Shown here one piece after another: positions 23,595-64,000 of a DNA stretch of 64,000 nucleotides. The stretch is taken from contig NC_088201.1 in assembly GCF_037126465.1 (NCBI RefSeq), positions 126,418,665-126,482,664 on the forward strand, given 5' to 3'. The translations under genes and the position numbers were made by a program. Within the stretch, counting starts at the first letter, position 1; each line of letters opens with the position of its first letter. The notes below the pieces were generated by a model that was given only the letters and a program-made list of their open reading frames with translations, was not told the origin of the DNA and ran no database searches. This DNA is from Ornithodoros turicata. Taxonomy: Eukaryota > Arthropoda > Arachnida > Ixodida > Argasidae.

Positions 23595-24061
23595 GTACCA
23601 TGCTACCAATGCATGCAAAAAAGCGCTCGAGTGCTCGCACATATACTGTTCTTTCAAGCATATTATGCACTCAAACTGTATTTGCCGCCGGCTAAAATGC
23701 AAGTGTGCTCGATTGAACGTCGGAGAGCGATCAAGCAACCTGCATCCAGTGCTCGTTTTGGGCAAAAAACACTTCATAATGGTCAACTAAATATACAGAA
23801 TCGACGCCTATTTATTCCTCGATAAAGAGTGACTCACCTGTATAAATTTAGGCCCTGTAACCTTGCCAGTACGGTCGGTACGACCGTAATTGCAAGATGT
23901 TGCCATGATCGCTGCGGCGACTGTTGTGGGTGGGAATGTGGGTACAGTAAGATGACGGCCGGTTTCTTCACGCTCGCGCTCCCTATCCGCGATCCAGCCT
24001 TTTACAATCGAGATCAGTGGTGGCACTAGAGTCACTGTATACGGGGATCGGAGTGGAAACC
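23595..24061. other. Left flank of the tRNA array
   Basis: No gene seen. The last 20 bases or so (ggggatcggagtggaaacc) already resemble the array spacer before a tRNA gene, so the array begins near 24040. Confidence 0.4.
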
Positions 24062-24077
24062 GCGCCGCTGGTGTAGT
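24062..24077 (+). pseudogene. tRNA-Gly 5' fragment (target duplication copy)
   Basis: The first 16 bases of the tRNA gene (gcgccgctggtgtagt), cut by the insertion at 24078. The same 16 bases recur at 24214-24229. Confidence 0.8.
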
Positions 24078-24213
24078 ACATGGTACTACATTTGTATTTG
24101 GATGCTACGGTGTGCATCATTAATTCATCATACATCACTCATTAACACTGTACAGTCATAGCTTATTTTAATGTTTGTAAATAAACGTTATTACCTGGTG
24201 GGAAAACAAAAAA
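24078..24213 (+). mobile_element. Short 5'-truncated insertion in a tRNA gene
   Basis: 136 bp between two copies of gcgccgctggtgtagt. It contains AATAAA near 24180 and ends in aaaacaaaaaa directly before tRNA base 1. Insertion site and A-rich end match element B, but the 3' UTR sequence does not resemble A/B, D or E. It is therefore probably the tail of another LINE, or a non-autonomous partner, using the same target. Confidence 0.7.
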
Positions 24214-24284
24214 GCGCCGCTGGTGTAGTGGTACCATGCAAGGTTCCCATTCTTGTGACCCGGATTCGATACCCGCGCTGCGCG
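24214..24284 (+). pseudogene. Degenerate tRNA-Gly(CCC)
   Basis: Keeps the CCC anticodon loop but has changes in the T arm (acccggattcgatacccg) and an acceptor 3' strand that no longer pairs (cgctgcgc). Confidence 0.75.
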
Positions 24285-24489
24285 ACGCTTTTGCATGTGC
24301 CAAGGACCATATTTTAAAGTGCATGTTGATGACTAACTTTGTTTGAGACCCATTCCAGAAGCAATATTACAGGTGTGGAAACGTAGGCACAAGGAATTTA
24401 CGCGGAGGTAAAGGAAACGAGTGAAGGAAATATTACTACGAATGATGCGTTTTTATTAATGGACCTCGTCGGAGATAGGAGTGAAAACG

Positions 24490-26284
24490 GCGCCGCTGCT
24501 GTAGTGGTATCATGCAAGATTTCCGGGCGGTGCAGCGCTTTTGCATGTGCCAAGGACCATCTTCTAAAGTGCATGTTGATGACTAACTTTGTTTGAGACC
24601 CATTCCAGAAGCAATATTACAGGTGTGGAAACGTAGGCACAAGGAATTTACGCGGAGGTAAAGGAAACGAGTGAAGGAAATATTACTACGAATGATGCGT
24701 TTTTATTAATGGACCTCGTCGGAGATAGGAGTGAAAACGGCGCCGCTGCTGTAGTGGTATCATGCAAGATTTCCGGGCGGTGCAGCGCTTTTGCATGTGC
24801 CAAGGACCATCTTCTAAAGTGCATGTTGATGACTAACTTTGTTTGAGACCCATTCCAGAAGCAATATTACAGGTGTGGAAACGTAGGCACAAGGAATTTA
24901 CGCGGAGGTAAAGGAAACGAGTGAAGGAAATATTACTACGAATGATGCGTTTTTATTAATGGACCTCGTCGGAGATAGGAGTGAAAACGGCGCCGCTGCT
25001 GTAGTGGTATCATGCAAGATTTCCGGGCGGTGCAGCGCTTTTGCATGTGCCAAGGACCATCTTCTAAAGTGCATGTTGATGACTAACTTTGTTTGAGACC
25101 CATTCCAGAAGCAATATTACAGGTGTGGAAACGTAGGCACAAGGAATTTACGCGGAGGTAAAGGAAACGAGTGAAGGAAATATTACTACGAATGATGCGT
25201 TTTTATTAATGGACCTCGTCGGAGATAGGAGTGAAAACGGCGCCGCTGCTGTAGTGGTATCATGCAAGATTTCCGGGCGGTGCAGCGCTTTTGCATGTGC
25301 CAAGGACCATCTTCTAAAGTGCATGTTGATGACTAACTTTGTTTGAGACCCATTCCAGAAGCAATATTACAGGTGTGGAAACGTAGGCACAAGGAATTTA
25401 CGCGGAGGTAAAGGAAACGAGTGAAGGAAATATTACTACGAATGATGCGTTTTTATTAATGGACCTCGTCGGAGATAGGAGTGAAAACGGCGCCGCTGCT
25501 GTAGTGGTATCATGCAAGATTTCCGGGCGGTGCAGCGGTTTTGCATGTGCCAAGGACCATCTTCTAAAGTGCATGTTGATGACTAACTTTGTTTGAGACC
25601 CATTCCAGAAGCAATATTACAGGTGTGGAAACGTAGGCACAAGGAATTTACGCGGAGGTAAAGGAAACGAGTGAAGGAAATATTACTACGAATGATGCGT
25701 TTTTATTAATGGACCTCGTCGGAGATAGGAGTGAAAACGGCGCCGCTGCTGTAGTGGTATCATGCAAGATTTCCGGGCGGTGCAGCGCTTTTGCATGTGC
25801 CAAGGACCATCTTCTAAAGTGCATGTTGATGACTAACTTTGTTTGAGACCCATTCCAGAAGCAATATTACAGGTGTGGAAACGTAGGCACAAGGAATTTA
25901 CGCGGAGGTAAAGGAAACGAGTGAAGGAAATATTACTACGAATGATACGTTTTTATTAATGGACCTCGTCGGAGATAGGAGTGAAAACGGCGCCGCTGGT
26001 GTAGTGGTATCATGCAAGATTTCCGGGCGGTGCAGCGCTTTTGCATGTGCCAAGGACCATCTTCTAAAGTGCATGTTGATGACTAACTTTGTTTGAGACC
26101 CATTCCAGAAGCAATATTACAGGTGTGGAAACGTAGGCACAAGGAATTTACGCGGAGGTAAAGGAAACGAGTGAAGGAAATATTACTACGAATGATACGT
26201 TTTTATTAATGGACCTCGTCGGAGATAGGAGTGAAAACGGCGCCGCTGGTGTAGTGGTATCATGCAAGATTTCCGGGCGGTGCA
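24490..26284 (+). pseudogene. Eight pseudo-tRNA-Gly copies with the same 26 bp deletion
   Basis: Each is 45 nt and reads ...gcaagatttccgggcggtgca. The anticodon loop, the anticodon 3' stem and the first half of the T arm, including the B box, are gone. Without a B box they should not be efficiently transcribed by Pol III. Each starts at a position listed for array segment 1. Confidence 0.9.
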
Positions 26285-26489
26285 GCGCTTTTGCATGTGC
26301 CAAGGACCATCTTCTAAAGTGCATGTTGATGACTAACTTTGTTTGAGACCCATTCCAGAAGCAATATTACAAGTGTGGAAACGTAGGTACAAGGAATTTA
26401 CACTGGGGTAAAGGAAACGAATGACGAAAATATTACTACGAATCATACGTTTTTATTAATGAACTTCGTCGGGGATAGGAGTGGCGACG

Positions 26490-26560
26490 GCGCCGCTGGT
26501 GTACTGGTATCATGCAAGATTCCCATTCTTGCGACCCGGGTTCGATTTCTGGGCGGCGCA
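26490..26560 (+). pseudogene. tRNA-Gly(CCC), altered A box and T arm
   Basis: Full length (71 nt) with anticodon CCC, but the A box reads tggtgtactgg and the T arm reads ttcgatttctggg, breaking T-stem pairs. Confidence 0.7.
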
Positions 26561-26765
26561 GCGCTTTTGCATGTGCCAAGGACCATGTTCTAAAATGCAT
26601 GTTCATGATTAACTTTGTATGAGACCCATTCCAGAAGCAATATTACAAATGTGGAAACGTAGGTACACGGAATTTACACTGGGGTAAAGGAAACGAATGA
26701 AGAAAATATTACTACGAATCATAAGTTTTTATTAATGGACCTCGTCGGAGATGTGAGTGTAAACA

Positions 26766-26836
26766 GCGCCGCTGGTGTAGTGGTATCATGCAAGAGTCCC
26801 ATTCTTGCGACCCGGGTTCGATTCCCGGGCGGCGCA
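26766..26836 (+). tRNA. tRNA-Gly(CCC), loop variant
   Basis: 71 nt with acceptor gcgccgc/gcggcgc, A box tggtgtagtgg, B box ggttcgattcc and discriminator A. The anticodon loop is GTCCCAT, so base 32 is G and not T. TTTT follows 4 bases after the 3' end. Confidence 0.8.
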
Positions 26837-27041
26837 GCGCTTTTGCATGTGCCAAGGACCATGTTCTAAAATGCATGTTCATGATTAACTTTGTATGAGA
26901 CCCATTCCAGAAGCAATATTACAAATGTGGAAACGTAGGTACACGGAATTTACACTGGGGTAAAGGAAACGAATGAAGAAAATATTACTACGAAGCATAA
27001 GTTTTTATTAATGGACCTCGTCGGAGATGTGAGTGTAAACA

Positions 27042-27103
27042 GCGCCGCTGGTGTAGTGGTATCATGCAAGATTCCCATTCTTGCGATCCGGGTTCGATTC
27101 CCG
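27042..27103 (+). pseudogene. tRNA-Gly truncated at an inversion junction
   Basis: Intact to gattcccg in the T arm (62 nt), then sequence switches to inverted array spacer. The acceptor 3' strand is lost. Confidence 0.85.
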
Positions 27104-27336
27104 ATGATTCGTAGTAATATTTTCTTCATTCGTTTCCTTTACCCCAGTGTAAATTCCGTGTACCTACGTTTCCACATTTGTAATATTGCTTCTGGAATGG
27201 GTCTCATACAAAGTTAATCATGAACATGCATTTTAGAACATGGTCCTTGGCACATGCAAAAGCGCTGCGCCGCCCGGGAATCGAACCCGGGTCGCAAGAA
27301 TGGGAATCTGGCATGATACCACTACACCAGCGGCGC
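27104..27336 (-). repeat. Inverted array unit
   Basis: The minus strand reads tRNA-Gly (27336-27266), then spacer through cgaatcat at 27104. It is the mirror of the plus-strand units to the left and directly adjoins the A-rich tail of element A. Confidence 0.85.
27266..27336 (-). tRNA. tRNA-Gly(CCC) on the minus strand
   Basis: 71 nt with anticodon loop TTCCCAT, complete A and B boxes and a TTTT terminator. One change (gccaga for gcaaga) alters the first anticodon-stem pairs. It is the regenerated target downstream of element A. Confidence 0.8.
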
Positions 27337-27493
27337 TGTTTTTTTCTTTTTCTTTTCCACCTTTATTTTTCAGAGCTTACTACTCTGAGTCACGTCGACT
27401 CAATACCTCACAATACCATACACAATACGACAAAATCACAGAGAGAGAATACGATGTTTCTCCTCTATACCGGACACGTTAATAACACAATTT

Positions 27494-30400
27494 CTACAAA
27501 ACATTCAGCCTTTCGCAGACTGTATCTAACCACTCAGGCACTTCTAAGAGCTGAGTACAAGCTAACTTTACCTGCAGTAGTTCGGCTTTGAAATATTTCA
27601 TAGGAGGACACAAGGGCTCTTCGTTCCTATCGGCCATACGAAGCTTCCACAAACAGTACATGGCAACAAGAAGAACGATATCGTATCTCACATTTTCACC
27701 GGGGCGTAATGGGAGGAAGCGGATAGTGTGAGGATTAAGCGAAAGACGGCGCTTAAGGACTTTGAACTGTAAGTCATCCCAAAAGAATAAAGCTTCTGTG
27801 CAGTCCAGAAAAAGGTGATCGACAGTCTCGGGCGTGTTGCAAAATCTGCAATTCACGGACCACGGAACATAGAATCCCTTCTGTTGAAGCCAAGCTTTCA
27901 CGGGCAGTGTGGACGTGTGTAATTTAAAGAAAAATGACTTCATGTTGGGCTTGACCGGCATCTTCCTGACTCTGCACAATACATCCGTGCCGTGCCATCC
28001 GGAGGGGATTTGACGGTAGATGGGCACAGGAAAGAGTACATCGAGAAGATGAGCTACCAACGTTTTCTTGGCGACAGAAAAGAGGTACTCTAGGCTGAAT
28101 CTAGCCTTCAAGAAGTTTAGGCTCTCGACAACCTCTTTGTAGAACCCGCTTAAGCGTAGACTTTCTTCGTGAAACCCAACATATATATCGGGAATGTAGT
28201 TGTACGCAAGGGCCCGCTTGATGGTTTCCAGAATCGGGTGTGAACTCTGCCTATAAAAAAACAGTCTCATGACGAGTTGCTTGATGTAGAGATGCTGTAA
28301 GCCTAGTCCGCCGTCCTTGACTTTCTTGAACAGGTTTTGTCTTCGCATCCTTTCGAACGTTGAACACCATATTGTGGTGGCAAATATGCGATGACAACGA
28401 TGTATAATTTTGCGGGAGCATTGCAGGACTTGCAAGAGGTAAATCAGCTTAGCGGCCAGAAAAACATTGCACACAGAAGCTCGTTGAAACATTGAGAGAT
28501 CTTGTTTTTTCCAGGTCGAAGCATGTGTCGTAATGTTTTGTAATCGCTCCGACCACAAGGAGGTCGTGTTACAACTTTTGTCTAACGGGACCCCAAGGTA
28601 GCAAGGACCACGGGTTTGCCACTGAACGCCACAAAAGAATTCCGGGGCTGTTCCCCATTGACCGCACCATATCCCCAGAGATTTGTCCTTGTTTAGACGT
28701 GCCCCAGAGACTTGACCAAACACATGAAGTTCGTGAATAACTTTGACGACACTTGGCTTGTCTGTCACGAGAAACGCAAGGTCATCCGCGTACGCCACGA
28801 CCTTCACCACAGCATCGCGAAGCTCGAAACCACGTATGTCACCACGAGAGATGATACGCTGGCATAACGGCTCAAGGTATAGATCAAATAGTAGGGATGA
28901 CATGGGACAGCCTTGTCGTACTGAAGCTCGAAGGGGCACTGGCGCGGTAAGAGTGCCGTTAATTACCAGGCTCGTTGCAACCTGTTCATAGCACAACTTG
29001 ATTCGGCTTACGAACTTGTCTCCCATGTTGACGTAATGCAAGAGCGAAAACAAATAATCGTGACACACCCGATCAAAAGCCTTAGAGAGGTCCACTTGCA
29101 GTAGGGCTACATGACTTCCTTCAAGTCGACACCAGTCTAGAACCGAGCGGACAACATGGATGTTTGTTTGTATGGTCCTGTTCCTGATTGCGCATGTCTG
29201 ATGATCGCCAACAAGTTGTGTCACCACAAGCTGGAGCCTGGCAGCAAGTACTTTGGCATACACCTTATAGTCCACATTACAGAGTGTGATAGGCCGATAA
29301 TCGGTCACCTTGGGTAACCGTGTCTCCGCCACTTTTTTGGGTATGAGCACAGTATGGGACCTTCGAAAACTGTGCGAGAAGATCCCGTTAGTCTCAGCTT
29401 CCGCGTAGACGCATTGTAGAATGGGCACCAGCAGGTCCACGTACCGCTTGTACAACTCAGCTCCCAAGCCATCAGGTCCAGGAGAACGGTTAAAATTCAA
29501 ACTCTGTATTGCAGAATGGATTTCCGCCTCTGTAATTTCAGCGTCCAGGACATCTTTCTCTTGCTCGTTTAACTTGGGCATATGAGAGAGAAACGACTGG
29601 ATCAAATCGTCGTCCACCGTGGCAGTTGGCCTCCCAAACAGGTTCTCATAGTAGTCAACAAATATTTGTTTCATGCGTTCAAGGTCTGTGACAACATGTC
29701 CTTGGTCCACCAACCGCGTGATGAGTCGAGAGCCGGTGTGCTTACGCTCTCCTGCAGCATGACTTTTAGACGCGGTCATATCCGGCAAAAACCTCTTCGT
29801 TCTCGATCGTACCCTCGCGCCTTCATACCGATTGTTGTTGAAAAGTTCAAGACGGAGACGAATCTCATTTAAATCTTCCAAGAACGTCCCAGGGTTATCT
29901 GCTTCCAGTCTTGTGAGTTCTTGTTGTGCTTCCTTTAACATGTTCTCTTCATACATTTCTAGGTAGGCTAGCACGTTACTTCTCTCTATTGCAAAGGCTC
30001 TCACGTCTTGTTTGAATGTTTCCCATTTAGCAGCCCAATTTCGCGGGTCATGTTGAAGCCGTGAAAGATTGGCCACCACGTGCTCATCAAAAACTGGATC
30101 TTGGAGCAACCTAACGTTCATCTTCCACAACTTCCATGACCTGGGGCTGCCCAGCCTAGGAGGGCGACACCCAATAGCGACCTTCACGAGGCAGTGATCA
30201 GTAAAATAAACAGGGTGCACTTCGTACTCACACACCGTATTCCACTGAGCGACAGAAAGATAACTACGATCCAATCGTGCGTGCGATGTACCTTGAAAGT
30301 GAGTGTATCTTATCACTGGCTGTGTGCTGTATTCGCAGGCATCTCTTAAACCATAATCACGTGCTATTCGCTGCAGACACTCGGCACTGCGGTCCTTCGC

Positions 30401-30889
30401 TTGAGAGGCAACGCTCCGGTCACTAGTTGACAGCACGCAGTTAAAGTCCCCTAAAACGACCAGGTTACCACGGGCTTGCAAATATTGCGTTAAGGATTCG
30501 AAGTACGCACACCTTAAGGTTGCATCATTGGGAGCATAGATAACTAGAATCCTCCAAGGCGTTCTGTCAATAAGGATATCAAGCATCACAGCCCTACCGT
30601 CGTTGTCCACCGCGTGATAAACATGAGTGTGGCCTAGGCGTTTTCGCACGAGAAGGAGAATACCTGCTGAGTAGCCCATAGCCTCACTAACAACAACGTC
30701 GAACTCATCGAGAAAATACTGGGATAACATCTGCTCAGTGTTTTCCGGAGAACCTAGTTTTGTTTCTTGGAGTGCGAAAAAGTCAACATGTGGGAAGCTG
30801 TCAAGGAGTCTTTTCAGTTGATACTGTCGCTTTTTGGTATTCAAACCCCTGACGTTAAGCGTGGCAAATGTAAGTTGTGGAGGCGTCAT
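27494..30889 (-). CDS. ORF2 of element A: endonuclease and reverse transcriptase
   Basis: About 1,131 residues from the ATG at 30889 (MTPPQLTFATLNVRGLN); the open frame extends upstream to 30976 without an ATG, so this start is chosen because it sits directly before the endonuclease. The APE-like endonuclease is N-terminal: TLNVRGLN, LQETK, GDFNC and FTDHCL supply the usual N, E, D and D-H catalytic residues. Reverse transcriptase is central: NFNRSPGPDGLGAE, LIPKK, VDLSKAFDR, VRQGCPMSS and the active-site AYADD. A cysteine-histidine knuckle near the C-terminus, CRFCNTPETVDHLFLDC (CX2CX7HX4C), is shared with D and E. The protein should nick the target and prime cDNA synthesis on element RNA. 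No stops or shifts. Confidence 0.92.
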   Translation of the reverse strand: MTPPQLTFATLNVRGLNTKKRQYQLKRLLDSFPHVDFFALQETKLGSPENTEQMLSQYFLDEFDVVVSEAMGYSAGILLLVRKRLGHTHVYHAVDNDGRAVMLDILIDRTPWRILVIYAPNDATLRCAYFESLTQYLQARGNLVVLGDFNCVLSTSDRSVASQAKDRSAECLQRIARDYGLRDACEYSTQPVIRYTHFQGTSHARLDRSYLSVAQWNTVCEYEVHPVYFTDHCLVKVAIGCRPPRLGSPRSWKLWKMNVRLLQDPVFDEHVVANLSRLQHDPRNWAAKWETFKQDVRAFAIERSNVLAYLEMYEENMLKEAQQELTRLEADNPGTFLEDLNEIRLRLELFNNNRYEGARVRSRTKRFLPDMTASKSHAAGERKHTGSRLITRLVDQGHVVTDLERMKQIFVDYYENLFGRPTATVDDDLIQSFLSHMPKLNEQEKDVLDAEITEAEIHSAIQSLNFNRSPGPDGLGAELYKRYVDLLVPILQCVYAEAETNGIFSHSFRRSHTVLIPKKVAETRLPKVTDYRPITLCNVDYKVYAKVLAARLQLVVTQLVGDHQTCAIRNRTIQTNIHVVRSVLDWCRLEGSHVALLQVDLSKAFDRVCHDYLFSLLHYVNMGDKFVSRIKLCYEQVATSLVINGTLTAPVPLRASVRQGCPMSSLLFDLYLEPLCQRIISRGDIRGFELRDAVVKVVAYADDLAFLVTDKPSVVKVIHELHVFGQVSGARLNKDKSLGIWCGQWGTAPEFFCGVQWQTRGPCYLGVPLDKSCNTTSLWSERLQNITTHASTWKKQDLSMFQRASVCNVFLAAKLIYLLQVLQCSRKIIHRCHRIFATTIWCSTFERMRRQNLFKKVKDGGLGLQHLYIKQLVMRLFFYRQSSHPILETIKRALAYNYIPDIYVGFHEESLRLSGFYKEVVESLNFLKARFSLEYLFSVAKKTLVAHLLDVLFPVPIYRQIPSGWHGTDVLCRVRKMPVKPNMKSFFFKLHTSTLPVKAWLQQKGFYVPWSVNCRFCNTPETVDHLFLDCTEALFFWDDLQFKVLKRRLSLNPHTIRFLPLRPGENVRYDIVLLVAMYCLWKLRMADRNEEPLCPPMKYFKAELLQVKLACTQLLEVPEWLDTVCERLNVL

Positions 30890-31076
30890 TAGGAGAGTGG
30901 GGAAGCGTACATGCAGGATGGGCAAAGAAGAGGAGTGAGTTCGTAGCAGTAGACTTACCGCGCTTGAAGAAGTCAAACTGCACAGTCACAAGAAACGAGT
31001 CTTAAAACAAGGGAAACGTACAATGCAACAACACACAACAGCACAATGTGACAACATGTCAGCACAGCAAAGAGCA

Positions 31077-32204
31077 CTATTCCGACTGAAAGCCGACATC
31101 GTCGAGGGCAGAGTGCCCCACTTCGACAATCTTGACGGGCAATGTCGCCGGAGGTGATCTTCTACCCTTCTTCCTTCTCGGGGTTACCCATTGATCGTTA
31201 TCATCGTCTTCTACGCGGGTCTCGGCCCAGTTGTTGCAATTTCCACCTTCCAGGACTGGGACTTGTGAAGGACCCTCTCCTGGTACTGGGTGTGGTACCG
31301 ACGAGGACGGACATCCATTTTCCACCAACTTCTGAGGCTGACTCACTGAGAGGGGGGCCGACGATGTCGGCTGAGGCAGAGCAGCGGGCGGAAGGGGAAC
31401 ACTGGGTACACAAGGCGACGGATTGCTGTCGGCATCGTCATCAAGTTCGTCATCGTCATCGTCTATGTCCATCTGATCGCCGTGGCTGGTGTGTTGACGA
31501 ACCTGAGACGCATAGGTCACGACACATTCATCATCCGCATGGCCAAAGCGACGACAAACCTTGCACCACGGGGTGTGGCACTGCTTCCGAATATGGCCCA
31601 CCGCTTTGCACCGCAGACACAGGGGTGGCCTACCTGGGACGGCAACTAGAACCTGACATCCGGAGATAAACATCTGATGCGGCAAGTTATCTGCCGCTAC
31701 ACCACGCTTCAAAGTAATAAACATCTGTCGAGTAGTCGTCTCAGCGCCCTCAAAGAAAGAGTCTCTCCACCGTTCTCGAGTGATATTCTTCACAACACCA
31801 AAACGGTCTAAAGCAGCCTCAACAGCTTCGTCAGGTACATGCTGCGGAAGCCAATGTAGCTTGATTTGAAGCTCTTTTTTGTGGGGGTCCAGAATGACGC
31901 AGCGTTTCCCTTTTACTGTCACTTCCCCAAGGCTTAGCAACTGGTCCCTCGCAGCCACATTATCGAAGGTCAGGGCCCACAGATGATTGTATACGAAGGG
32001 ACCAACTGATGTAACCTGACTCCGGTTCACTTTGTCCTTGAGTGCATCACTAAAATGACCAATGTTGTACGGTCGCCCAGCGGGGTCCGCGTGTAGGAAA
32101 ACTGTATTCAAGGCAACAGTACCTGAAGGAATCATTGGCAGAACAAATTTATATCCATCATCCCGGCTAGGCCTAGCCGTAGAAGCCGCTCGATCAGAGC
32201 ACAT
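31077..32204 (-). CDS. ORF1 of element A: zinc-knuckle RNA-binding protein
   Basis: About 375 residues from the first ATG (MCSDRAAS); the frame is open 12 codons further, to the element edge, without an ATG. A globular N-terminal part (about residues 15-190) may be an RRM-like fold. Two CX2CX4HX4C knuckles follow at about residues 195-230: CLRCKAVGHIRKQC and CKVCRRFGHADDEC. Then comes a strongly acidic run (MDIDDDDDELDDD), a proline/serine-rich stretch and a basic RRKKGRRS patch near the end. Known role in this class: packages element RNA with ORF2. It is intact and upstream of ORF2, as expected. D and E carry related ORF1 remains. Confidence 0.9.
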   Translation of the reverse strand: MCSDRAASTARPSRDDGYKFVLPMIPSGTVALNTVFLHADPAGRPYNIGHFSDALKDKVNRSQVTSVGPFVYNHLWALTFDNVAARDQLLSLGEVTVKGKRCVILDPHKKELQIKLHWLPQHVPDEAVEAALDRFGVVKNITRERWRDSFFEGAETTTRQMFITLKRGVAADNLPHQMFISGCQVLVAVPGRPPLCLRCKAVGHIRKQCHTPWCKVCRRFGHADDECVVTYASQVRQHTSHGDQMDIDDDDDELDDDADSNPSPCVPSVPLPPAALPQPTSSAPLSVSQPQKLVENGCPSSSVPHPVPGEGPSQVPVLEGGNCNNWAETRVEDDDNDQWVTPRRKKGRRSPPATLPVKIVEVGHSALDDVGFQSE

Positions 32205-32240
32205 ATTGCTTGCGTCCGGCCGACTCCCACGAGCTCGCAA

Positions 32241-32268
32241 AAAAAAAAAAAAGAAAAAAAAGAAAAAA
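32241..32268 (+). repeat. A-rich tract in plus orientation at the 5' edge of element A
   Basis: A run of A with two single Gs, ending directly at tRNA base 1 (32269). It looks like the 3' tail of a plus-strand insertion although the element beside it is on the minus strand. Confidence 0.8.
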
Positions 32269-32339
32269 GCGCCGCTGGTGTAGTGGTATCATGCAAGAGT
32301 CCCATTCTTGCGACCCGGGTTCGATTCCCGGGCGGCGCA
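32269..32339 (+). tRNA. tRNA-Gly(CCC), loop variant
   Basis: Loop GTCCCAT, identical to the copy at 26766; all else intact. This shared variant links the two sides of element A. Confidence 0.8.
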
Positions 32340-32544
32340 GCGCTTTTGCATGTGCCAAGGACCATGTTCTAAAATGCATGTTCATGATTAACTTTGTATG
32401 AGACCCATTCCAGAAGCAATATTACAAATGTGGAAACGTAGGTACACGGAATTTACACTGGGGTAAAGGAAACGAATGAAGAAAATATTACTACGAATCA
32501 TAAGTTTTTATTAATGGACCTCGTCGGAGATGTGAGCGAAAACA

Positions 32545-32615
32545 GCGCCGCTGGTGTAGTGGTATCATGCAAGATTCCCATTCTTGCGATCCGGGTTCGA
32601 TTCCCGGGCGGCGCA
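32545..32615 (+). tRNA. tRNA-Gly(CCC)
   Basis: Standard loop TTCCCAT. One T-arm change (gatccggg for gacccggg), also found in the truncated copy at 27042. Confidence 0.82.
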
Positions 32616-32820
32616 GCGCTTTTGCATGTGCCAAGGACCATGTTCTAAAATGCATGTTCATGATTAACTTTGTATGAGACCCATTCCAGAAGCAATATTA
32701 CAAATGTGGAAACGTAGGTACACGGAATTTACACTGGGGTAAAGGAAACGAAGGAAGAAAATATTACTACGAATCATAAGTTTTTATTAATGGACCTCGT
32801 CGGAGATGTGAGTGTAAACA

Positions 32821-32891
32821 GCGCCGCTGGTGTAGTGGCATCATGCAAGATTCCCATTCTTGCGACCCGGGTTCGATTCCCGGGCGGCGCA
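32821..32891 (+). tRNA. tRNA-Gly(CCC)
   Basis: 71 nt, standard loop and T arm, with a single D-arm change (gtggcatc for gtggtatc). Confidence 0.85.
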
Positions 32892-33096
32892 GCGCTTTTG
32901 CATGTGCCAAGGACCATGTTCTAAAATGCATGTTCATGATTAACTTTGTATGAGACCCATTCCAGAAGCAATATTACAAATGTGGAAACGTAGGTACACG
33001 GAATTTACACTGGGGTAAAGGAAACGAATGAAGAAAATATTACTGCGAATCATAAGTTTTTATTAATGGACCTCGTCGGAGATGTGAGTGTAAACA

Positions 33097-33167
33097 GCGC
33101 CGCTGGTGTAGTGGTATCATGCAAGATTCCCATTCCTGCGACCCGGGTTCGATTCCCGGGCGGCGCA
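33097..33167 (+). tRNA. tRNA-Gly(CCC)
   Basis: 71 nt; the anticodon stem has one substitution (ttcctg for ttcttg), giving a mismatch in the lower stem. Confidence 0.78.
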
Positions 33168-53436: not shown

Positions 53437-56400
53437 CTCAAGACGAATGGCCTTCCTTCCGTTGGGCGCTTCTGAATTCGAACGAGACGGAGTGATCAGG
53501 CATCAGGACGTTACCCAATATCTAAATGACTAGTATTGTCATAGGCACATTAAACGCAAGGGGGCTAAATTCAATAAAAACAATACCAATTGCGAAGGTA
53601 TTTGGAGCACCATACGTATATTGACATCCTCGGTATACAAGAAACTAAAATCAGCGCGAAGAAGAAACTGCTAGGTTAGTGCATAATCTTTTCGAGAAAA
53701 GCTATGACGTCGTTGTGAGCCATGCTGTGGGGCATTCAGCTGGGTGCCTGATCTTATTAAGAAAGTCTGACAGAATCGTGCCAATCTTTCATGGAGTGGA
53801 CAATGAGGGAAGGTTAGCGTACCTTGATGTATTGATTGACAACGTGGACATTTGGAGAGTTGTTTGCGTTTATTCCCCAAATGACGAAAATGAAAGAAAA
53901 GAGTTCTTCAGCAGCCTCGGTAACCTCTTCAATAGTTCAAATGCATACATCTTGCTGGGCGACTTCAACTGCACCCTTAGGCAGCGGGACAGATCGACAG
54001 GGAAAGTGACCGGGATTCAAGTCGAGCGGTACTGGAAGGTGTTTCAGAAACTTTGATTTAAAAGATGCCGCTGACAGCTGTCCAAGAGGTTTTCATGTAT
54101 ATACTCATTTCCAAGGAAACTCACACGCTCGACTAGACCGCATATATATATCCGAGTCCCATAGTCGAAAGGTCACGGAATACAGCGTAAAGGCAGCTTA
54201 CTTTAGTGATCATTGCCTGGTGACAGCAACCATTGGGGAAAAGAAGAAGAAAAAAGACCAAAGAAACAAATGGCAAAAGTGGAAGCTGATTGTAAAGATA
54301 CTAGAGGATGAATCATTCCTCGATATAGTCAAGCAAGAAATTGTAGAAGTTGCAATAAGCAGCGAAGAATGGGCAGTGGCATGGGAGAAGTTCAAGATGA
54401 AGATACGTGGAATAGCCATAAAAAAAAGCAGCATAAGAAATTTCTTACAAAAGCAAAAGGAGAATGACTTAAACAAAAAACACGGTGAAGTGCTCGAACT
54501 AGAATCAAGGGCTCCAGGAAACTGGAACGAAGTTTTAGAAGCGACTAATACCCCTGTCAGACGGCATGCTCGAAGGACTTCTGGGAATTTTCATTTGCAA
54601 AAAATGACCTCTGATGGAACTAAATATCATAAATGAGGAAATGTATAACGGTGCAAAGATAAGATCGCGCGCAAAGAACTTTCTTCCCGATGAGCCACCA
54701 GGAAAGAATTTTTGTTGGAAAGAACGGAAGCGAGGAAGAGCAAAGCAGATCGACAAGCTAGACCACAACGGAAAAATAATCTCGACAGATAAAGAAATGC
54801 TAGGTGCTTTCGAAGCGTAGTACAAAGAACTGATGGGAAGCGGACAGAAATCTACGAGGAACAATCCTCAGGAAGCAATAACTTTTCGAAGATTATCAGA
54901 CAAGAGCAGGGAGCATCTTGATGGGCCTATCACCTTGGGCGAAATTCGGGAGGCTATTGAAACGTTGCCAAGAAACCGAACACCCGGAACCGACGGCATC
55001 AGCGCGGAATTTTATCAAACATTTAAAGACTTCCTATCAGTAATATTGTTGAACATATACAGAGAAGCTGAACAGAAACAAGAATTCCCACCATCATTCA
55101 AACGGACACACACCGTGCTCATCCCTAAGGAAATAGAAGATGGAAAAGTACCACAAGTGAAGGACTTCAGACCAATAATGCTCTGTAACGTAGACTACAA
55201 AATATACGCAAAAGTTTTAGCTGGCAGGTTGCAGAAGGTTATTACAGAAATTGTCGGGGAACACCAGACTTCTGCCATCAAAGGAAGAAGTATTCAAACG
55301 AACATACATGTAATGAGAACTGTGTTGGATTTATGCCAGTTAGAAGGGGAGCAAGTTGCAGTGCTACTAGCAGACCTGACCAAAGCCTTCGATAGAGTGG
55401 ACCACGAATTCCTATACTGGGTAATGACCATGAATGGAAGTGGACAGACGTTTCTTCAAAAAGTACAGCTATGTTACAAGAATGTCCAGACCGTGGTGTT
55501 ATTCAACAATCAGTGTACGAGTTCAATACCGTTAAAGTCATCCGTTAGGCAGGGGTGCCCATTGTCACCACTTCTACTTAATGTATATGTGGAATACTTG
55601 TGTCAGAGCGTCCTTCAGAGGAAGAGCATCACAGGATTCGAGGTGTTTGGAACGGAGGTGAAAGTTTTAGCATACGCGGACGATATTGCCTATTTTGCAA
55701 AGGACAAAAACTGTGTGAAGTGTGTAGAGGAGTTTTGTGAATTATCAGGGGCCAAACTAAACAAGGCTAAGTCTGTAGGGATCTGGGCGGGCCAGTGGGG
55801 GTCCACGCCAGATCATTTTGGAGGAATTAGATGGCAGGCAGCGCCGACAGTTTACCTTGGAGTTCCCTTGGACAAGACTCGGAACACTAGCCCGATGTGG
55901 GATGAACAGCTGAAGCAGATAGGAAAAACAGTCCACAGCTGGAAACAAAGAAGACTCTCAATTTTCCAGAGGGCCTCCGTGTGCAACATATTCTTTGTCT
56001 CAAAACTCCTGTATTTACTCCAGTTGATGCAACTTCCCCGTAGGAATATTCAGAAGTTTCATCGTTTGTTCGCAACATATGTGTGGTTTTCAACGTTTGA
56101 AAGTATGCGTCGAGATAACCTATTTCACAGTGTTAAGCGAGGCGGTCTAGGGCTAAGGCATTTGTTCGCGGCCAAACTGGTGATGCGACTGTTTTTCTTC
56201 AGAAAGTGCAACCACCCATTGTTAAAGACAGTACTACAGTCAGTGGGAAGCCAAAACTTGGCTAGCATAACTGTTGCGACAGTCAAGCGTGTGTATGCTG
56301 TGAGTAAGTTTTATGCAGAGGTTGTAGAATGTATGCAGTTTTTGCTTGTAAGATTTACACGCGAATCTGTTTTTAGTGTAGGTAAAAAAAAAAGCTGTAC

Positions 56401-57289
56401 CATGACTTGATAGACACTCTCTTCCCCGTTCCTATATATAGAATTGTACCACCGAACTTGGAAGGACAGGACATAGTGTGCCGAATCCGAGCCATGCCTG
56501 TAAGACCTCAAATCAAAAGTTTTTTCTTTAAAGGGACGGTCTCGTACAGATCGAGCGATTCCGAAACTTAGCTGAAATTATATTCAAGAGTGCTACAGAA
56601 ACACAGTTGCGAAGTTTCAACCAGAACAACGAAGTGGTTTTCGAGAAATTTGAAGGAATATGCCATGACAGCAGACGACGGAAGTCGCAGCTGGATTCAA
56701 CTCCCTCTCATGCAACGTCACATGTGACGTGGTTATGGTATTTATGGTGGCAGGTCGCCCATTGGGCGACCGAAGCGCAATGCACAATATAGTCGGAGGT
56801 GTATGCGCTTTGCGCTTGGAAGTTGTCACGCGCGACGTCGTAATGTCTGATAGCAAATTTAGCGATAGTGACGGGTCCCTGTCACTAAGCGGTTAAGATG
56901 AGCTCATCGGCGCCGATCGATTGAAGAACCGGGGACGTCGATGAACCTTTAGCTACTGACCCTTTGCCACAACAACGTGGTTAGCCAGTGAAAGTAGTGG
57001 ATGATCCGGAATCGATTGACAGGTAAGACTCATCCATAAAAGCGCACTGTTTTGCGTATATATGTTCCGCCTGATCGTGACACCATTCTAAATTGTACAA
57101 ACATTGCAGGTGTGTGTGTAGCCATTGCTCGCCAATACCAGCATGTGTTGTGCGCACAATCCGGAACCTGTTTCGATCCGTCACGTACACATGGTGTTGT
57201 ATTCTCCTGAAAGGTGTTGTAAGGTTTGTTTTTGTTGCGCAGCTTTTTATTTGCATATAAAAATGTGTGTTTCATGGTACGTTATGCAA

Positions 57290-57422
57290 ACTTTAAAAGC
57301 GATAAAAACCCCCGTGCCGGGGAACAAGTCAACAGACGACACAACACACAGGCACTGTGCCTGTGTGTTGTGTCGTCTGTTGACTTGTTCCCCGGCACGG
57401 GGGTTTTTATCGCTTTTAAAGT
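57290..57422. repeat. Perfect 66 bp inverted repeat with 1-base centre
   Basis: Arms 57290-57355 and 57357-57422 are exact reverse complements around T57356 (caggcac-T-gtgcctg at the centre). The arms contain cccccgtgccgggg. Partial complementarity continues a few bases outside. It would extrude as a long hairpin. Confidence 0.95.
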
Positions 57423-57779
57423 ATGCTGTACCGAACAGCCCAATTTTTAACCATTTACGTTATGCAAAATTTCAGATTTGGGCATTTCGTCATATGTATC
57501 AGAACTTCGATAGACTGCTGAAGAAAGCTGCTCTTTCTATCCATTCCCGCAAGCGGCAGGAGGTTGTCAACGTGATAAGTGAAGGCTTTCCATTCATGTC
57601 ATTACACCTGGAGCAAATGACAAAATCAAGGATAAGCTGATCTACGTCAACGTCTTCAATTACCCCTGGCCTATGAAAAAAAAAAAGCCCTTTTCAGGAC
57701 CATCCAACATATCTGCATCAAAGACCATGCTTCTGCATCGAATAAGCCCTTATCATCATTGATGATTATAATATTTCAT

Positions 57780-59440
57780 ATCAAAAATACCTAGACGTGC
57801 ATTACGAATGTGCAAGATGGAACAGCCGTATTTTTGCTCATGCTACACCGGTGTGTTCAAGAGCCCATACTGACTCAGATTTTGATTGTGTCAGGGGTTG
57901 CACACTAAGATGTCCAGCACGTTGAATATAAAAGATTTGTAAATGTTTAAAAACTTTCAAAAATATCAAAAATACCTAGATGTCCATGACAAATTTGTAA
58001 GATGGAGCAGCGGTTTGCAACATGTTTACATGTCGTCTGGCTTATTTTGCTCATGTTACACCGGGGTGTTCACGAGCCCATACTGGCTCAGATTTTGATT
58101 GTGTCAGGGGTTGCACACCAAGATGTCCAGCACGTTGAATATAAAAGATTTGGAAATGTTTAAAAACTTTCAAAAATACCAAAAATACCTAGACGTCCAT
58201 GACAAATTTGTAAGATGGAACAGCGGTTTGCAACATGTTTACATGTCATCTGGCTTATTGTTGCTCATGTTACACCACTGTGTTCATGAGCCCATACTGG
58301 CTCAGATTTTGATTATGTCAGGGGTTGCACACTAAGATGTCCAGCACGTTGAATATAAAAGATGTGGAAATGTTTAAAAACTTTCAAAAATATCAAAAAT
58401 ACCTAGACGTCCATGACAAATTTGTAAGATGGAACACCGGTTTGCAACATGTTTACATGTCGTCAGTCTTATTTTTGCTCATGTTACACCGGTGTGTTCA
58501 CGAGCCCATACTGACTCAGATTTTGATTGTGTCAGGGGTTGCACACTAAGATGTCCAGCACGTTGAATATAAAAGATTTGGAAATGTTTAAAAACTTTCA
58601 AAAATATCAAAAATACCTAGACGTCCATGACAAATTTGTAAGATGGAACAGCGGTTTGCAACATGTGTACATGTCGTCTGGCTTATTTTTGCTCATGTTA
58701 CACCGGTGTGTTCACGAGCCCATACTGACTCAGATTTTGATTGTGTCAGGGGTTGCACACTAAGATGTCCAGCACGTTGAATATAAAAGATTTGGAAATG
58801 TTTAAAAACTTTCAAAAATATCAAAAATACCTAGACGTCCATGGCAAATTTGTAAGACGGAACACCGGTTTGCAAGATGTTTACATGTTGTCAGTCTTAT
58901 GGTTGCTCACGTTACACCGGTGTGTTCATGAGCCCATACTGACTCAGATTTTGATTGTGTCAGGGGTTGCACACTAAGATGTCCAGCACGTTGAATATAA
59001 AGATTTGTAAATGTTTAAAAACTTTCAAAAATATCAAAAATACCTAGACGTCCATGACAAATTTGTAAGATGGAACACCGGTTTGCAACATGTTTACATG
59101 TCGTCTGGCTTATTGTTGCTCATGTTACACCGGTGTGTTCATGAGCCCATACTGGCTCAGATTTTGATTGTGTCAGGGGTTGCACACCAAGATGTCCAGC
59201 ACGTTGAATATAAAAGATTTGGAAATGTTTAAAAACTTTCAAAAATATCAAAAATACCTAGACGTCCATGACAAATTTGTAAGATGGAACAGCGGTTTGC
59301 AACATGTTTACATGTCATCTGGCTTATTGTTGCTCATGTTACACCGGTGTGTTCATGAGCCCATACTGGCTCACATTTTGATTCGATATCAGGGGTTGCA
59401 GACTAACATGTCCAGCACGTTGAATATAAAGGTTGCGGAA
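57780..59440 (+). repeat. 214 bp tandem satellite, about eight units
   Basis: The marker acctagacgtccatg recurs at about 57790, 57974, 58188, 58401, 58615, 58829, 59043 and 59257: period 214, with a shortened first unit. Units differ at scattered sites (for example cgtctggctta against cgtcagtctta). Each unit holds an open frame of about 78 codons, but 214 is not a multiple of 3, so no continuous protein is encoded. Confidence 0.95.
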
Positions 59441-59544
59441 GTTGAGTGTTTATGTAGTCATCATTTATTGTCCCTTATTGTAATGTACGTCCACAGCACT
59501 GACCAATTGTGTTAAAATTGGGTTGTTGGTATCGGGTAGTTATA

Positions 59545-59629
59545 ATGATGTTCAAGCAGCAAGCTCTGAGCAACCTGTCGTCCTGTCCTGTCAACAAGGT
59601 TGTCTTGTCTTTTGCTGCTTGAACATCAT
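59545..59629. repeat. Short hairpin-forming inverted repeat
   Basis: Arms atgatgttcaagcagcaa (59545-59562) and its exact reverse complement (59612-59629) are separated by 49 bases rich in cctgtc/ttgtct. Confidence 0.8.
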
Positions 59630-61389
59630 ATAATCGCAACACTGATTTGTGGATTATAACTTACATATTTATATTATGCAATACTTTTCTCACATCAGCA
59701 ACGTGCAGGGAAAAATTAAATAGAGCTGTGAAGCCTGCGAATTGGAGTTGTTATATTTGTGACCCATTAATAGGTGTTGATTCTGGCACAGGAAGGAGTG
59801 CCACTCTCATCAGTTAGTGTCAGCTACTGAAGGGGTACAAGACAACATTATTGAGCATAGTTTGGCAATATACTGCTCCGGTAGGGATAATACCTTGAGA
59901 GGCTACATGCAAAACAAACTGATGTAGCGCCTGCTGGATCAAGCACTTCCTTCTCGCAATACTACCGAGGTACGCGGGACTGCCGTTTCGTGCGGTGCCG
60001 ACAATTTCTGTACACATCACTTTTGGCTATTATCAACAAAGTAATACCTACATTTCAATACTGCGCGTATCCAGTTCTTTGCACACCGTTGCCGCTAACA
60101 GTTGACTGCGTGACAGTCGACATCTTTTAGTTTGAGCTGCGTCAGGCGCCGTCCCTTACATATCGTGCTCGCAGAACGTCTCTTACCTCATATGCATCGT
60201 GAACGAAACGTGCGGAGTACACGCACGCGTGTGACAATCAGACCTTTTGTTGAAGATGCTTCGAGTATGTGACACCCAACAGGTTCTTTTCTATATCCAC
60301 TTTCGTCACATTGTCGTCGACAAAAGAGTTGTTATACACCCGGGTTACGTTTCCACCACTTCCATACTTAATATTCTTTTCGCAGGTAAGACGAACTAGA
60401 AGTGCTCAAAATACCGAACGATACGAGACAAGTTAGTAAATAATCGTCAACTGCCTTTATTAGGTGGAGTCATCCACGTAAACTCCCGCTCGAAATGAAG
60501 ATGCGAGACGTTTTGACATTGTTGTTCGGCCACATTTTACAATACGCGTCTTTCGTTTGACCAGACCACATGCAGCAAATTTATTGCCGTCGCCGTGATC
60601 CTCGAGCACCTTTTGGAAGTCGTCTGCTCTCACCGCTGCAAAAAGGCGCGAGAGCAGACGATTTGTTCATCCAATAAGCGGTCTGCCATCGTAGCGGATA
60701 TCGCTGTTGCCAACAGAAATCGCAATGTGCTGGCGCTGTTCTTATCAACTTCATTCGTTTATTTAATAACCGTGACGATTCTGGACGAGCGAATTCACAG
60801 TATTACGTTTTCAGCAATGAGGAATCGAATGGTACGCTTTGTGGATGGGCCAGGGTGTACGATACCGCATACGCTGACACTCCCTGTGAAATCATGGTTG
60901 GATAAAAAAGGATTTTTCGCGCCCTGGACGACGAACTGCAGATTCTGCAACACCCAAGAGACAGTCGAGCACCTGTTTCTTGATTGTACTGAGGCACTCT
61001 TCTTTTGGGATGAACTCAGAACGAAACTGGGAAGATATGTAAGATTAGATCCATACACTATGAGGTTTTTGCCTTTTGAACAGACCGAAGAAATCAGAGA
61101 TGACATATTATGTGTAATCTCAATGTTTTGCATATGGAAGGTCAGGGTATTGGACCGAAACGAAGAGCCACTTAAACCACCGATGTGCTTTTTAAAAGAA
61201 GAAATTGATCAAATGTACACAATAGCACGGTACAGGCAATTGGTACCGGAGTGGTTACGTGTGTATGTGACAAAATTACTCCCAAGTCGGGAGGCTTTTG
61301 GTGGAACGTTACGCGCGTGAAGCTCATGTGATATCACTGTAAATATGCCATAATCATGAATAAATGTGCAAGATCAGGAAAAATAAACG

Positions 61390-61460
61390 GTGCCGCTGGT
61401 GTAGTGATATCATGCAAGATTCCCATTCTTGCGACCCGGGTTCGATTCCAGGGCGGCGCA
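61390..61460 (+). tRNA. tRNA-Gly(CCC) downstream of element D
   Basis: Anticodon loop TTCCCAT; acceptor gtgccgc makes one G-T pair; D arm gtgatatc; T arm ttccagg has one mismatch. TTTT follows. It is the right-hand copy of the tRNA that also precedes element D. Confidence 0.78.
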
Positions 61461-61665
61461 GGGCTTTTGCATGTGCCAAGGACCATGTTCTAAAGTGCAT
61501 GTTGATGATTAACTTTGTTTGAGACCCATTTCAGAAGCAATATTACAAGTGTGGAAACGTAGGTATAAGGAATTTACACTGGTGTAAAGGAAGCGAATGA
61601 AGAACATAGTAATACGCATAATACGTTTTTATTAATGGACCTCGTCGGAGATGTCAGTGGAAACA

Positions 61666-61736
61666 GCGCCGCTGGTGTAGTGGTATCATGCGAGATTCCC
61701 ATTCTTGCGACCCGGGTTCGATTCCCGGGCGGCGCA
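61666..61736 (+). tRNA. tRNA-Gly(CCC)
   Basis: Canonical except gcgaga for gcaaga in the anticodon stem. Followed by gcgcagcgcTTTT. Confidence 0.85.
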
Positions 61737-61946
61737 GCGCAGCGCTTTTGCATGTGCCAAGGACCATGTTCTAAAGTGCATGTTGATGATTAACTTTGTT
61801 TGAGACCCATTTCAGAAGCAATATTACAAGTGTGGAAACGTAGGTATAAGGAATTTACACTGGTGTAAAGGAAGCGAATGAAGAACATAGTAATACGCAT
61901 AATACGTTTTTATTAATGGACCTCGTCGGAGATGTCAGTGGAAACA

Positions 61947-62017
61947 GCGCCGCTGGTGTAGTGGTATCATGCAAGATTCCCATTCTTGCGACCCGGGTTC
62001 GATTCCCGGGCGGCGCA
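61947..62017 (+). tRNA. tRNA-Gly(CCC)
   Basis: Fully canonical 71-nt copy with T4 terminator. Confidence 0.93.
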
Positions 62018-62227
62018 GCGCAGCGCTTTTGCATGTGCCAAGGACCATGTTCTAAAGTGCATGTTGATGATTAACTTTGTTTGAGACCCATTTCAGAAGC
62101 AATATTACAAGTGTGGAAACGTAGGTATAAGGAATTTACACTGGTGTAAAGGAAGCGAATGAAGAACATAGTAATACGCATAATACGTTTTTATTAATGG
62201 ACCTCGTCGGAGATGTCAGTGGAAACA

Positions 62228-62272
62228 GCGCCACTGGTGTAGTGGTATCATGCAAGATTCCCGGGCGGCGCA
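62228..62272 (+). pseudogene. tRNA-Gly with independent 26 bp deletion
   Basis: Reads gcaagattcccgggcggcgca: one GATTCCC of the two in the intact gene, with everything between lost. The base context differs from the deleted copies at 24.5-26.3 kb. Confidence 0.9.
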
Positions 62273-62477
62273 GCGCTTTTGCATGTGCCAACGACCATGT
62301 TCTAAAGTGCATGTTGATGATTAACTTTGTTCGAGACCCATTTCAGAAGCAATATTAGAAGTGTGGAAATGTAGGTATAAGGAATTTACACTGGTGTAAA
62401 GGAAGCGAATGAAGAACATAGTAATACGCATAATACGTTTTTATTAATGGACCTCGTCGGAGATGTCAGTGGAAACA

Positions 62478-62489
62478 GCGCCGCTGGTG
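62478..62489 (+). pseudogene. tRNA-Gly 5' fragment at the element C junction
   Basis: gcgccgctggtg, then element sequence; TG/T at the joint is shared by both partners, so the exact cut is ambiguous by 1-2 bases. Confidence 0.85.
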
Positions 62490-64000
62490 TTTATCACGCG
62501 GTGGACAACGACGGTAGGGCTGTGATGCTTGATATCCTTATTGACAGAACGCCTTGGAGGATTCTAGTTGTCTATGCTCCCAATGATGCAATCTCGAGGT
62601 GTGCGTACTTTGAATCCTTAACGCAATATTTGCAAGCCCGTGGCAACCTGGTCGTTTTAGGGGACTTTAACTGCGTGCTGTGAACTAGTGACCGGAGCGT
62701 TGCCCCCCAAGCGAAAGACCGCAGTGCCGAGTGTCTGCAGCGAATAGCACGTGATTATGGTTTAAGAGATGCCTGCGAATACAGCACACAGCCAGTTATA
62801 AGATACACTCACTTTCAAGGTACCTCGCACGCACGATTGGATCGTATTTATCTTTCTGTCGCTCAGTGGAATACGGTGTGTGAGTACGAAGTGCACCCTG
62901 TTTATTTTACTGATCACTGCCTCGTGAAGGTAGCTATTGGGAGTCGCCCTTCTAGGCTGGGCAGCCCCAGGTCATGGAAGTTGTGGAAGATGAACGTTAG
63001 GTTGCTCCAAGATCCAGTTTTTGATGAGCGTGTGGTGGCCAATCTTTCACAGCTTCAACATGACCCGCGAAACTGGGCTGTTAAATGGGAAACATTCAAA
63101 CAAGATGTGAGAGCCTTTGCAATAGAGAGAAGTAACGTGCTAGCCTACCTGGAAATGTGTGAAGAGAACATGTTAAAGGACGCACAACAAGAACTCACAA
63201 GACTGGAAGCAGATAACCCTGGAACGTTCTTGGAAGATTTAAATGAGATTCGTCTCCGTCTTGAACTTTTCAACAACAATCGGTATGAAGGCGCGAGGGT
63301 GCGATCGATAACGAAGAGGTTTTTGCCGGATATGACCGCGTCTAAAAGTCATGCTGCAGCAGAGCGTAAGCACACCGGCTCTCGACTCATCACGCGGTTG
63401 GTGGACCAAGGACATGTTGTCACAGACCTTGAACGTATGAAACAAATATTTGTTGACTACTATGAGAACCTGTTTGGGAGGCCAACTGCCACGGTGGGCG
63501 GCGATTTGATCCAGTCGTTTCTCTCTCATATGCCCAAGTTAAACGAGCAAGAGAAAGATGTCCTGGACGCTGAAATTACAGAGGCGGAAATCCATTCTGC
63601 AATACAGAGTTTGAATTTTAACCGTTCTCCTGGACCTGATGGCTTGGGAGCTGAGTTCTACAAGCGGTACGTGGACCTGCTGGTGCCCATTCTACAGTGC
63701 GTCTACGCGGAAGCTGAGACTAACGGGATCTTCTCGCACAGTTTTCGAAGGTCCCATACTGTGCTCATACCCAAAAAAGTGGCGGAGACACGGTTACCCA
63801 AGGTGACCGATTATCGGCCTATCACACTCTGTAATGTGGACTATAAGGTGTATGCCAAAGTACTCGCTGCCAGGCTCCAGCTTGTAGTGACACAGCTTGT
63901 TGGCAATCATCAGACATGCGCAATCAGGAACAGGACCATACAAACAAACATCCATGTTGTCCGCTCAGTTCTAGACTGGTGTCGACTTGAAGGAAGTCAT
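62490..64000 (+). mobile_element. Element C: 5'-truncated copy of the element A family, runs off the window
   Basis: Starts inside the endonuclease region (tttatcacgcggtggac matches A and B) and is nearly identical to B throughout. Its 3' end and right-hand tRNA lie beyond the window. Confidence 0.93.
62490..64000 (+). pseudogene. ORF2 of element C, truncated and with a stop
   Basis: Reads YHAVDNDGRAVMLD to GDFNCVL, then TGA at about 62681-62683 where B has TCA. The frame continues beyond it through THFQGTSHARLDR, SPGPDGLGAEFY and DYRPITLCNVDYKVYAKVLA to the window edge. It cannot encode an active protein. Confidence 0.9.

Follow-up and report, generated by a model that had tools for sequence, protein, structure and literature searches.

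A 64,000-nucleotide stretch of the genome of the tick Ornithodoros turicata (contig NC_088201.1, positions 126,418,665 to 126,482,664; hereafter the window) contains a tandem array of tRNA-Gly genes interrupted by copies of long interspersed nuclear elements (LINEs), which we designate A, B, C, D, and E. A survey of their relatives throughout the genome indicates that they very probably represent a diverse L1-like clade that integrates by target-primed reverse transcription, with the 5′ boundary of tRNA genes as its general target. The joins lie mostly within a few bases of the gene start, and the tRNA gene itself is usually kept whole. The LINE copies, the open reading frames (ORFs) of A, and a further short insertion in the same array are given below in window coordinates, with tRNA bases counted from the start of the gene.

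24078–24213, plus strand: short insert of 136 bp with the 3′ end ...AATAAACGTTATTACCTGGTGGGAAAACAAAAAA; the tail joins tRNA base 1.
27337–32268, minus strand: LINE A, about 4.9 kb, both ORFs open; the 3′ tail joins tRNA base −1 (minus strand).
27494–30976, minus strand: ORF2 of A, 1160 amino acids, with an Exo_endo_phos endonuclease domain of the apurinic/apyrimidinic endonuclease (APE) type, RVT_1, and zf-RVT (Pfam).
31077–32240, minus strand: ORF1 of A, up to 387 amino acids, with two CCHC knuckles (from the motifs) and, ahead of them, a probable fold like that of an RNA-recognition motif (RRM; low-confidence model).
33389–36882, plus strand: LINE B, 5′-truncated, A family; tRNA bases 1–16 are duplicated and the tail joins base 1.
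37738–49965, plus strand: LINE D, old, frame-broken, and with nested insertions; an 18-nt duplication (tRNA bases 10–27), and the tail joins base 9.
52793–61387, plus strand: LINE E, broken, with about 4.3 kb between two ORF2 pieces; the left end is at tRNA base ~70–75 and the tail joins base −1.
62489–64000, plus strand: LINE C, 5′-truncated, A family, continuing past the window; one stop in the part inside.

Relatives of these elements were collected from the 1.07-Gb genome with ORF2 of A (41 rows) and the reverse transcriptase (RT) of E (82 rows) as queries. The union of both queries, with a weak 37-residue row of the A search excluded, comprises 98 places picked by similarity and not by location, 20 of which were analyzed as long loci, 75 as short 3′ flanks, and 3 inside the window; the survey covers the best-scoring copies from about 14,000 first-look candidates per query. 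A 3′ tail was found in 83 of the 98 places. Most of these tails (53) join at positions −4 to +3 of tRNA base 1, with 7 more at −25 to −5 and 6 at +4 to +18; the others lie in tRNA-like arrays with A and B boxes (7), at a tRNA-Sec gene (1), at a Ser tRNA fragment (1), in masked sequence (4), on another copy (1), or farther off (2, at −87 and, for a mis-set tail, at −32), and one is false. Adding 14 neighboring tails gives 97 unique tails, with 63 at −4 to +3, 7 at +4 to +18, 7 at −25 to −5, 2 further off, 4 masked, and 14 without a match in the tRNA library (8 in tRNA-like repeats, and one each at tRNA-Sec, at the Ser fragment, in a Thr(TGT) spacer, in a decayed stretch of an Arg array, on another copy, and false). 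Mis-set tails (the first tail of L017, L027, and L061; surveyed copies carry L numbers) and the false tail of L033 were kept in these counts. The commonest join is base 1 itself (22 of 79 measured joins), 59 of the 79 fall at −25 to +1, and none lies between −33 and −86. All tRNA matches are on the LINE's own strand; an opposite-strand match was present in no tail segment.

The tRNA genes were called by ARAGORN, with the position of base 1 set from T8 of the A box. The kind labels are often unsure, as some genes called Ser(aga), Leu(tag), Arg(cct), or Val(cac) resemble Pro-, Trp-, or Gly-type genes and the Gly(ccc) label of L070 is a doubtful partial match; the tRNAs were therefore also clustered by sequence at 80% identity into what we call backbones. 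By either measure the range of targets is broad: the 63 tails at −4 to +3 span 29 labels, corresponding to 19 backbones.

As a control we used the dispersed LINE with an RNase H domain that is nested in D (68 genomic rows, of which the 20 at ranks 2–21 were used). ARAGORN found a tRNA in 0 of its 20 3′ flanks, against 77 of 92 tails near a tRNA for the surveyed elements (Fisher P = 5e-13). A tRNA-fragment match of about 22 nt was present in 2 of the 20 control flanks, and comparison of this figure with the similarity-chosen tails (66 of 78) gives a Fisher P of 6e-10; both denominators, 92 and 78, exclude L033 and the 4 masked tails. Even if the tails were distributed uniformly within array units of 160 bp, the probability of finding at least 63 of 92 in an 8-nt bin would be 2e-59.

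A single family occurs at many kinds of tRNA gene. The 3′ untranslated region of the A family was recognized on 26 tails, and the 17 of these at −4 to +3 represent 13 labels and 11 backbones, the genes being labeled Arg, Glu, Gly, Lys, Met, Phe, Pro, Thr, and Val; other A-family joins are at tRNA-Sec, at His (−20), at Thr(CGT) (−87), and at the Ser fragment. Copies with ORF2 sequences 96–100% identical over long stretches are found at Arg, Lys, Val, Met, Phe, Pro, Thr, Glu, and other tRNA genes. An RT tree of 28 copies, calculated without outside references, accordingly contains near-identical A-family rows from across several arrays, and the target is common to the deeper families. Copies with 34–35% identity to A are also located at tRNA or tRNA-like genes (L026, L010, and D), and close relatives of E (94–96%) at genes labeled Gln(ctg), Gly(tcc), and Val(cac). 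No relatives of these LINEs were found in viral and prokaryotic contigs. A preliminary description, made from the window alone, had regarded the elements as residents of tRNA genes; the genomic copies are indeed mostly not outside such genes, but they occupy many besides Gly(CCC). An origin of the array copies from one duplicated insertion was ruled out, as the copies differ in 5′ truncation, flanking sequence, and class of tRNA, and identity in the 60-nt tail plus 20-nt flank is limited to 1 pair of the 97 tails.

The targets extend beyond ordinary tRNA genes. One tail joins a tRNA-Sec gene (RF01852, 49.3 bits), a gene whose promoter differs in animals, and 8 tails join tandem repeats of two kinds with ~140-bp spacing, which contain A-box-like and B-box-like motifs and a T-run (L009 and L010; L098–L100, L102, and L103), at −4 to +5 of the equivalent of base 1 as judged by eye. 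Neither ARAGORN nor Rfam recognized a tRNA in these repeats, which are possibly unnamed genes of RNA polymerase III (Pol III). Together with the tRNA-Sec insertion they suggest that the targets are Pol III genes as such. Matches to microRNAs in L029 were rejected, being under their gathering scores and within a simple repeat.

Within the window itself, 5 of 6 A-rich runs lie at −4 to +3 of tRNA base 1, with D, at base 9, as the exception (P = 1.2e-7 under a uniform 276-bp null). Five of these runs are the 3′ joins given above for the short insert, A, B, D, and E, as read from the sequence, and the sixth adjoins A on its 5′ side, directly next to base 1 of the following tRNA gene. C ends beyond the window; its 3′ end, when fetched, entered a masked stretch and so was not counted. 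The 5′ junctions are also located within the tRNA, at base 16 (short insert and B), 13 (C), 27 (D), and ~70–75 (E), the last of which corresponds to no ordinary duplication. The preliminary description was therefore correct in placing the insertions of this tandem tRNA-Gly(CCC) array at the gene and not the spacer, and its picture of repeated independent insertion and long residence also holds, with several families taking part. D and E, however, are not decayed copies of A: A, B, and C form one family (97–99% identical), and D and E are families separate from A, with amino acid identities by segment of 32–41% (A–D) and 34–59% (A–E). The ratio of nonsynonymous to synonymous substitutions (dN/dS) is 0.27 for A versus B and 0.26 for A versus C; for B versus C, which differ in 12 codons only, it is 0.88. 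The short insert is flanked on both sides by the 16-nt duplication GCGCCGCTGGTGTAGT (tRNA bases 1–16) and, from its sequence, is probably the 5′-truncated 3′ end of a LINE from a further family, its 3′ end recurring in other copies (L054 and L064) and, in nearly the same form, before other tRNAs such as Pro(CGG) and Gly(TCC).

Several of these copies have a complex structure. Element A carries tRNA-Gly base 1 at both ends, the two facing opposite ways, and is accompanied by an A-rich run on either side and by an inverted 233-bp piece of the array (27104–27336 and 32239–32268); two priming events joined together, an inversion, or an assembly fault may account for these inverted junctions. The A-rich run to the left of A may be partly native, because full-length A-family copies (5′ ends of L002–L004, L006, and L007) start with a tract of 6 to 39 T before GCGAG. 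Inside D (39280–45638), 29-nt inverted ends starting with TTAA are found 6.3 kb apart and probably delimit a DNA transposon, within which the RNase H LINE sits (41364–43307). A 214-bp tandem repeat of ~7.5 copies (57829–59430) lies between the two ORF2 pieces of E.

The proteins place these elements near L1. The Pfam domains of ORF2 of A score 46.4 bits (Exo_endo_phos), 101 bits (RVT_1), and 32.5 bits (zf-RVT), and an RNase_H domain was not found in it by Pfam. Its closest solved protein is L1 ORF2p (247 bits, E = 3e-72), with R2 at 96 bits, and the RT of E likewise scores 188 bits against L1 ORF2p and 102 against R2; as the matches include no RT of R1, I, or CR1, this is a comparison of L1 with R2 only. 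The elements were originally described as L1/Tx1-like, which agrees with their APE-type endonuclease, RT, and zf-RVT domains and with an RT nearer to L1 ORF2p than to R2. A structure model of ORF2 was too poor to be used (mean predicted local distance difference test score, pLDDT, of 31). The model of ORF1 (mean pLDDT 50) matched RRM structures with TM-scores by query of at most 0.23 among the matches listed, so that the RRM-like region N-terminal to the knuckles is a probable, domain-level lead.

Among the 38 elements with a left flank, 21 repeat 11 nt or more of their 3′ flank on the upstream side, and 18 of these 21 duplications measure 11–18 nt, the others 25, 29, and 49 nt. A few are doubtful: the 15 nt of E are not at its real left end, L027 depends on an A-rich mis-set tail, one of L018 is 7.1 kb away, and the 49 nt of L028 are maybe paralogous. 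Insertions at Val genes show duplications of 9–10 nt by eye. The sequence upstream of the join (−20 to −1) is not conserved (at most 0.21 bit across 36 labels), and the A box is conserved next to the nick, which points to guidance by the Pol III complex or by the A box. In the mechanism that we propose, the endonuclease would nick the non-coding strand at about base 1, reverse transcription would be primed from the 3′ end on the tRNA side, and the coding strand would be cut usually 11–18 nt further in, often in the A box. The predicted product has a short piece of tRNA on its upstream side and a complete tRNA gene on its downstream side; a join at or before base 1 leaves the downstream gene whole. 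Because the bases at the nick vary among tRNA kinds, it is most likely the Pol III transcription complex (TFIIIC on the A and B boxes, TFIIIB at the start site) that determines the position, as it does for TRE5 and Ty3, and the exact base may be chosen by the endonuclease.

A number of observations weigh against this reading. No upstream duplication of 11 nt is detectable in 17 of the 38 elements, and part of the 21 duplications may be paralogous copies from the array. In 15 of the 98 places no 3′ tail was found, and since the best-scoring copies were covered, the behavior of more distant relatives may differ. There are exceptions to the rule, as some insertions lie in spacers (−87, ~−28, −24, and −20), and all three tRNA-His insertions are off base 1 (L003 at −20, L055 and L057 at −9), perhaps reflecting a shifted start site. 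The predominance of G at base 1 (1.17 bits) leaves room for a weak sequence cue at the nick. T8 and A14 are invariant in part by construction, since the A-box motif used to align the tRNAs requires both. Finally, guidance by the Pol III complex is an interpretation drawn from sequence comparison.

One alternative is that the APE endonuclease reads the conserved A box itself and nicks at a fixed distance upstream, with no need for a host factor, which we consider unlikely though worth taking seriously. The conserved stretch beside the nick is the A box, if partly because of how the tRNAs were aligned, and the two cuts fall on either side of it or within it; in addition, APE-type endonucleases of target-specific LINEs are reported to contribute to target-specific cleavage. 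However, A-box-like sequence should be frequent in a 1-Gb genome, yet the copies are found at genes; the tRNA-His joins at −9 and −20 occur despite a normal-looking A box; and the target is common to endonucleases only 32–34% identical. A second alternative, that insertion is random and copies survive or multiply only in the shelter of tandem tRNA arrays, is very improbable. Such arrays can lose and gain units and should therefore tolerate insertions, but the junctions are concentrated at one position of the unit and on the coding strand, the 5′ ends and tRNA kinds vary among copies, and the control LINE is found away from tRNA genes. The proposal of the preliminary description, a Tx1-group specialist of tRNA-Gly(CCC) arrays, fits the location of every window copy within this array but is already refuted by same-family copies at many other tRNA kinds throughout the genome, and we give it practically no credence. 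We incline, by a modest degree, to the fuller reading that this is an animal LINE clade which reads the Pol III complex and not one sequence, inserting at the +1 boundary of nearly all tRNA genes as well as of tRNA-Sec and of unnamed tRNA-like Pol III genes while keeping the tRNA intact, with many families of half-diverged RTs side by side in a large genome with tandem tRNA arrays.

The array in the window consists of tandem repeats with a unit of mostly 276–281 bp, each with a 71-nt tRNA-Gly(CCC) gene; some units carry the anticodon CAC or CCT in place of CCC. The segments adjoining the LINEs are as follows.

26490–27103, plus strand: array units with tRNA-Gly(CCC) to the left of A; the last one breaks off at base 62 of its tRNA gene.
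27104–27336, minus strand: inverted 233 bp of the array (tRNA-Gly and spacer), after the 3′ end of A.
32269–33388, plus strand: four tRNA-Gly(CCC) units and tRNA bases 1–16, the left flank of B.
49966–52792, plus strand: array between D and E, including units with CAC and CCT anticodons.
61390–62490, plus strand: tRNA-Gly(CCC) units to the left of C; the last one stops at tRNA base 13.

The CAC anticodon on a Gly-like tRNA (called Val) occurs in five consecutive units (51062–52240), a change that has spread through the array, and in eight 250-bp units at 24490–26489 a 26-nt part of the tRNA gene, bounded by two GATTCCC-like repeats, is missing. Outside the array, the window contains transposase pieces with TNP-like RNase H domains (PF21787 and PF21789) at 2148–4209 and 12323–12931. 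In the fetched stretches (L001–L103 and the window) we counted 251 tRNA genes with 38 labels, many kinds being organized in regular tandem arrays with spacings of 346 bp (Arg(ACG)), 224 bp (Thr(TGT)), 188 bp (His), 182/196 bp (Pro), 305 bp (Val), and 311 bp (Lys). An unexpected result of the ARAGORN search was that Thr, Arg, Pro, His, Val, Lys, Ser, Met, and other tRNA arrays adjoin the surveyed LINEs.

Within the literature searched, targeting of tRNA genes by LINEs has so far been described from social amoebae with compact genomes. If our reading is true, the tick elements add a further case, with a precision of a few bases, many tRNA kinds, several diverged families, and a 1-Gb genome, and would put in question the view that genome compactness drives tRNA targeting. 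They also supply naturally occurring endonucleases, together with their targets, for studying how a transcription complex is read by a LINE and, as the targeted gene survives insertion, a lead toward safe insertion sites. In a literature search that missed most subscription journals and all preprints, no animal LINE directed at tRNA genes generally came up, and a word search of a review of Pol III targeting (PMC5911963) returned no word beginning with animal or metazoan.

Several known elements share part of this behavior. The long terminal repeat elements Ty3, DGLT-A, and Tj1 are also reported to insert in tRNA genes at or close to where Pol III starts, but are integrase-based, and Dada DNA transposons also insert inside multicopy tRNA and snRNA genes, but with a DDE transposase and duplications of 6–7 bp. 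Among target-specific LINEs, Dewa of zebrafish is described from the tRNA-Leu spacer, whereas the elements here occupy the gene boundary of many tRNAs. Keno (U2), Mutsu (5S), and Tx1, which are placed in the Tx1 group, are likewise target-specific LINEs of multicopy targets, but each is described from one target kind, whereas here one family uses many tRNA genes with differing sequence at the nick. In its behavior the tick clade is one of general tRNA-gene-targeting L1-like LINEs and is closest to TRE5 and NLTR-A of Dictyostelium. According to PMC5006619, Dp_NLTR-A of Dictyostelium purpureum inserts 2–6 bp upstream of the first tRNA nucleotide, a position overlapping with but shifted from that observed here (63 of 97 at −4 to +3, most commonly base 1, 22 of 79), and has an RNase H domain after the RT, whereas Pfam found none in ORF2 of A. 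The L1-type TRE5 elements of Dictyostelium are reported to insert 40–54 bp (~50) upstream of tRNA genes (PMC5006619, PMC5911963); TRE5-A needs the B box, its A box is presumed to fix the insertion distance, and its ORF1 binds TFIIIB subunits (PMC5911963, PMC5391098). Like TRE5, the tick elements are LINEs with an APE endonuclease, two ORFs, an oligo(A) tail, and many tRNA kinds as targets (PMC5911963, PMC5391098). Unlike TRE5, they most commonly join at base 1, with duplications that run into the gene, and whereas the host of TRE5 is an amoeba with a compact genome, here the same kind of target is used in a genome of 1.07 Gb.

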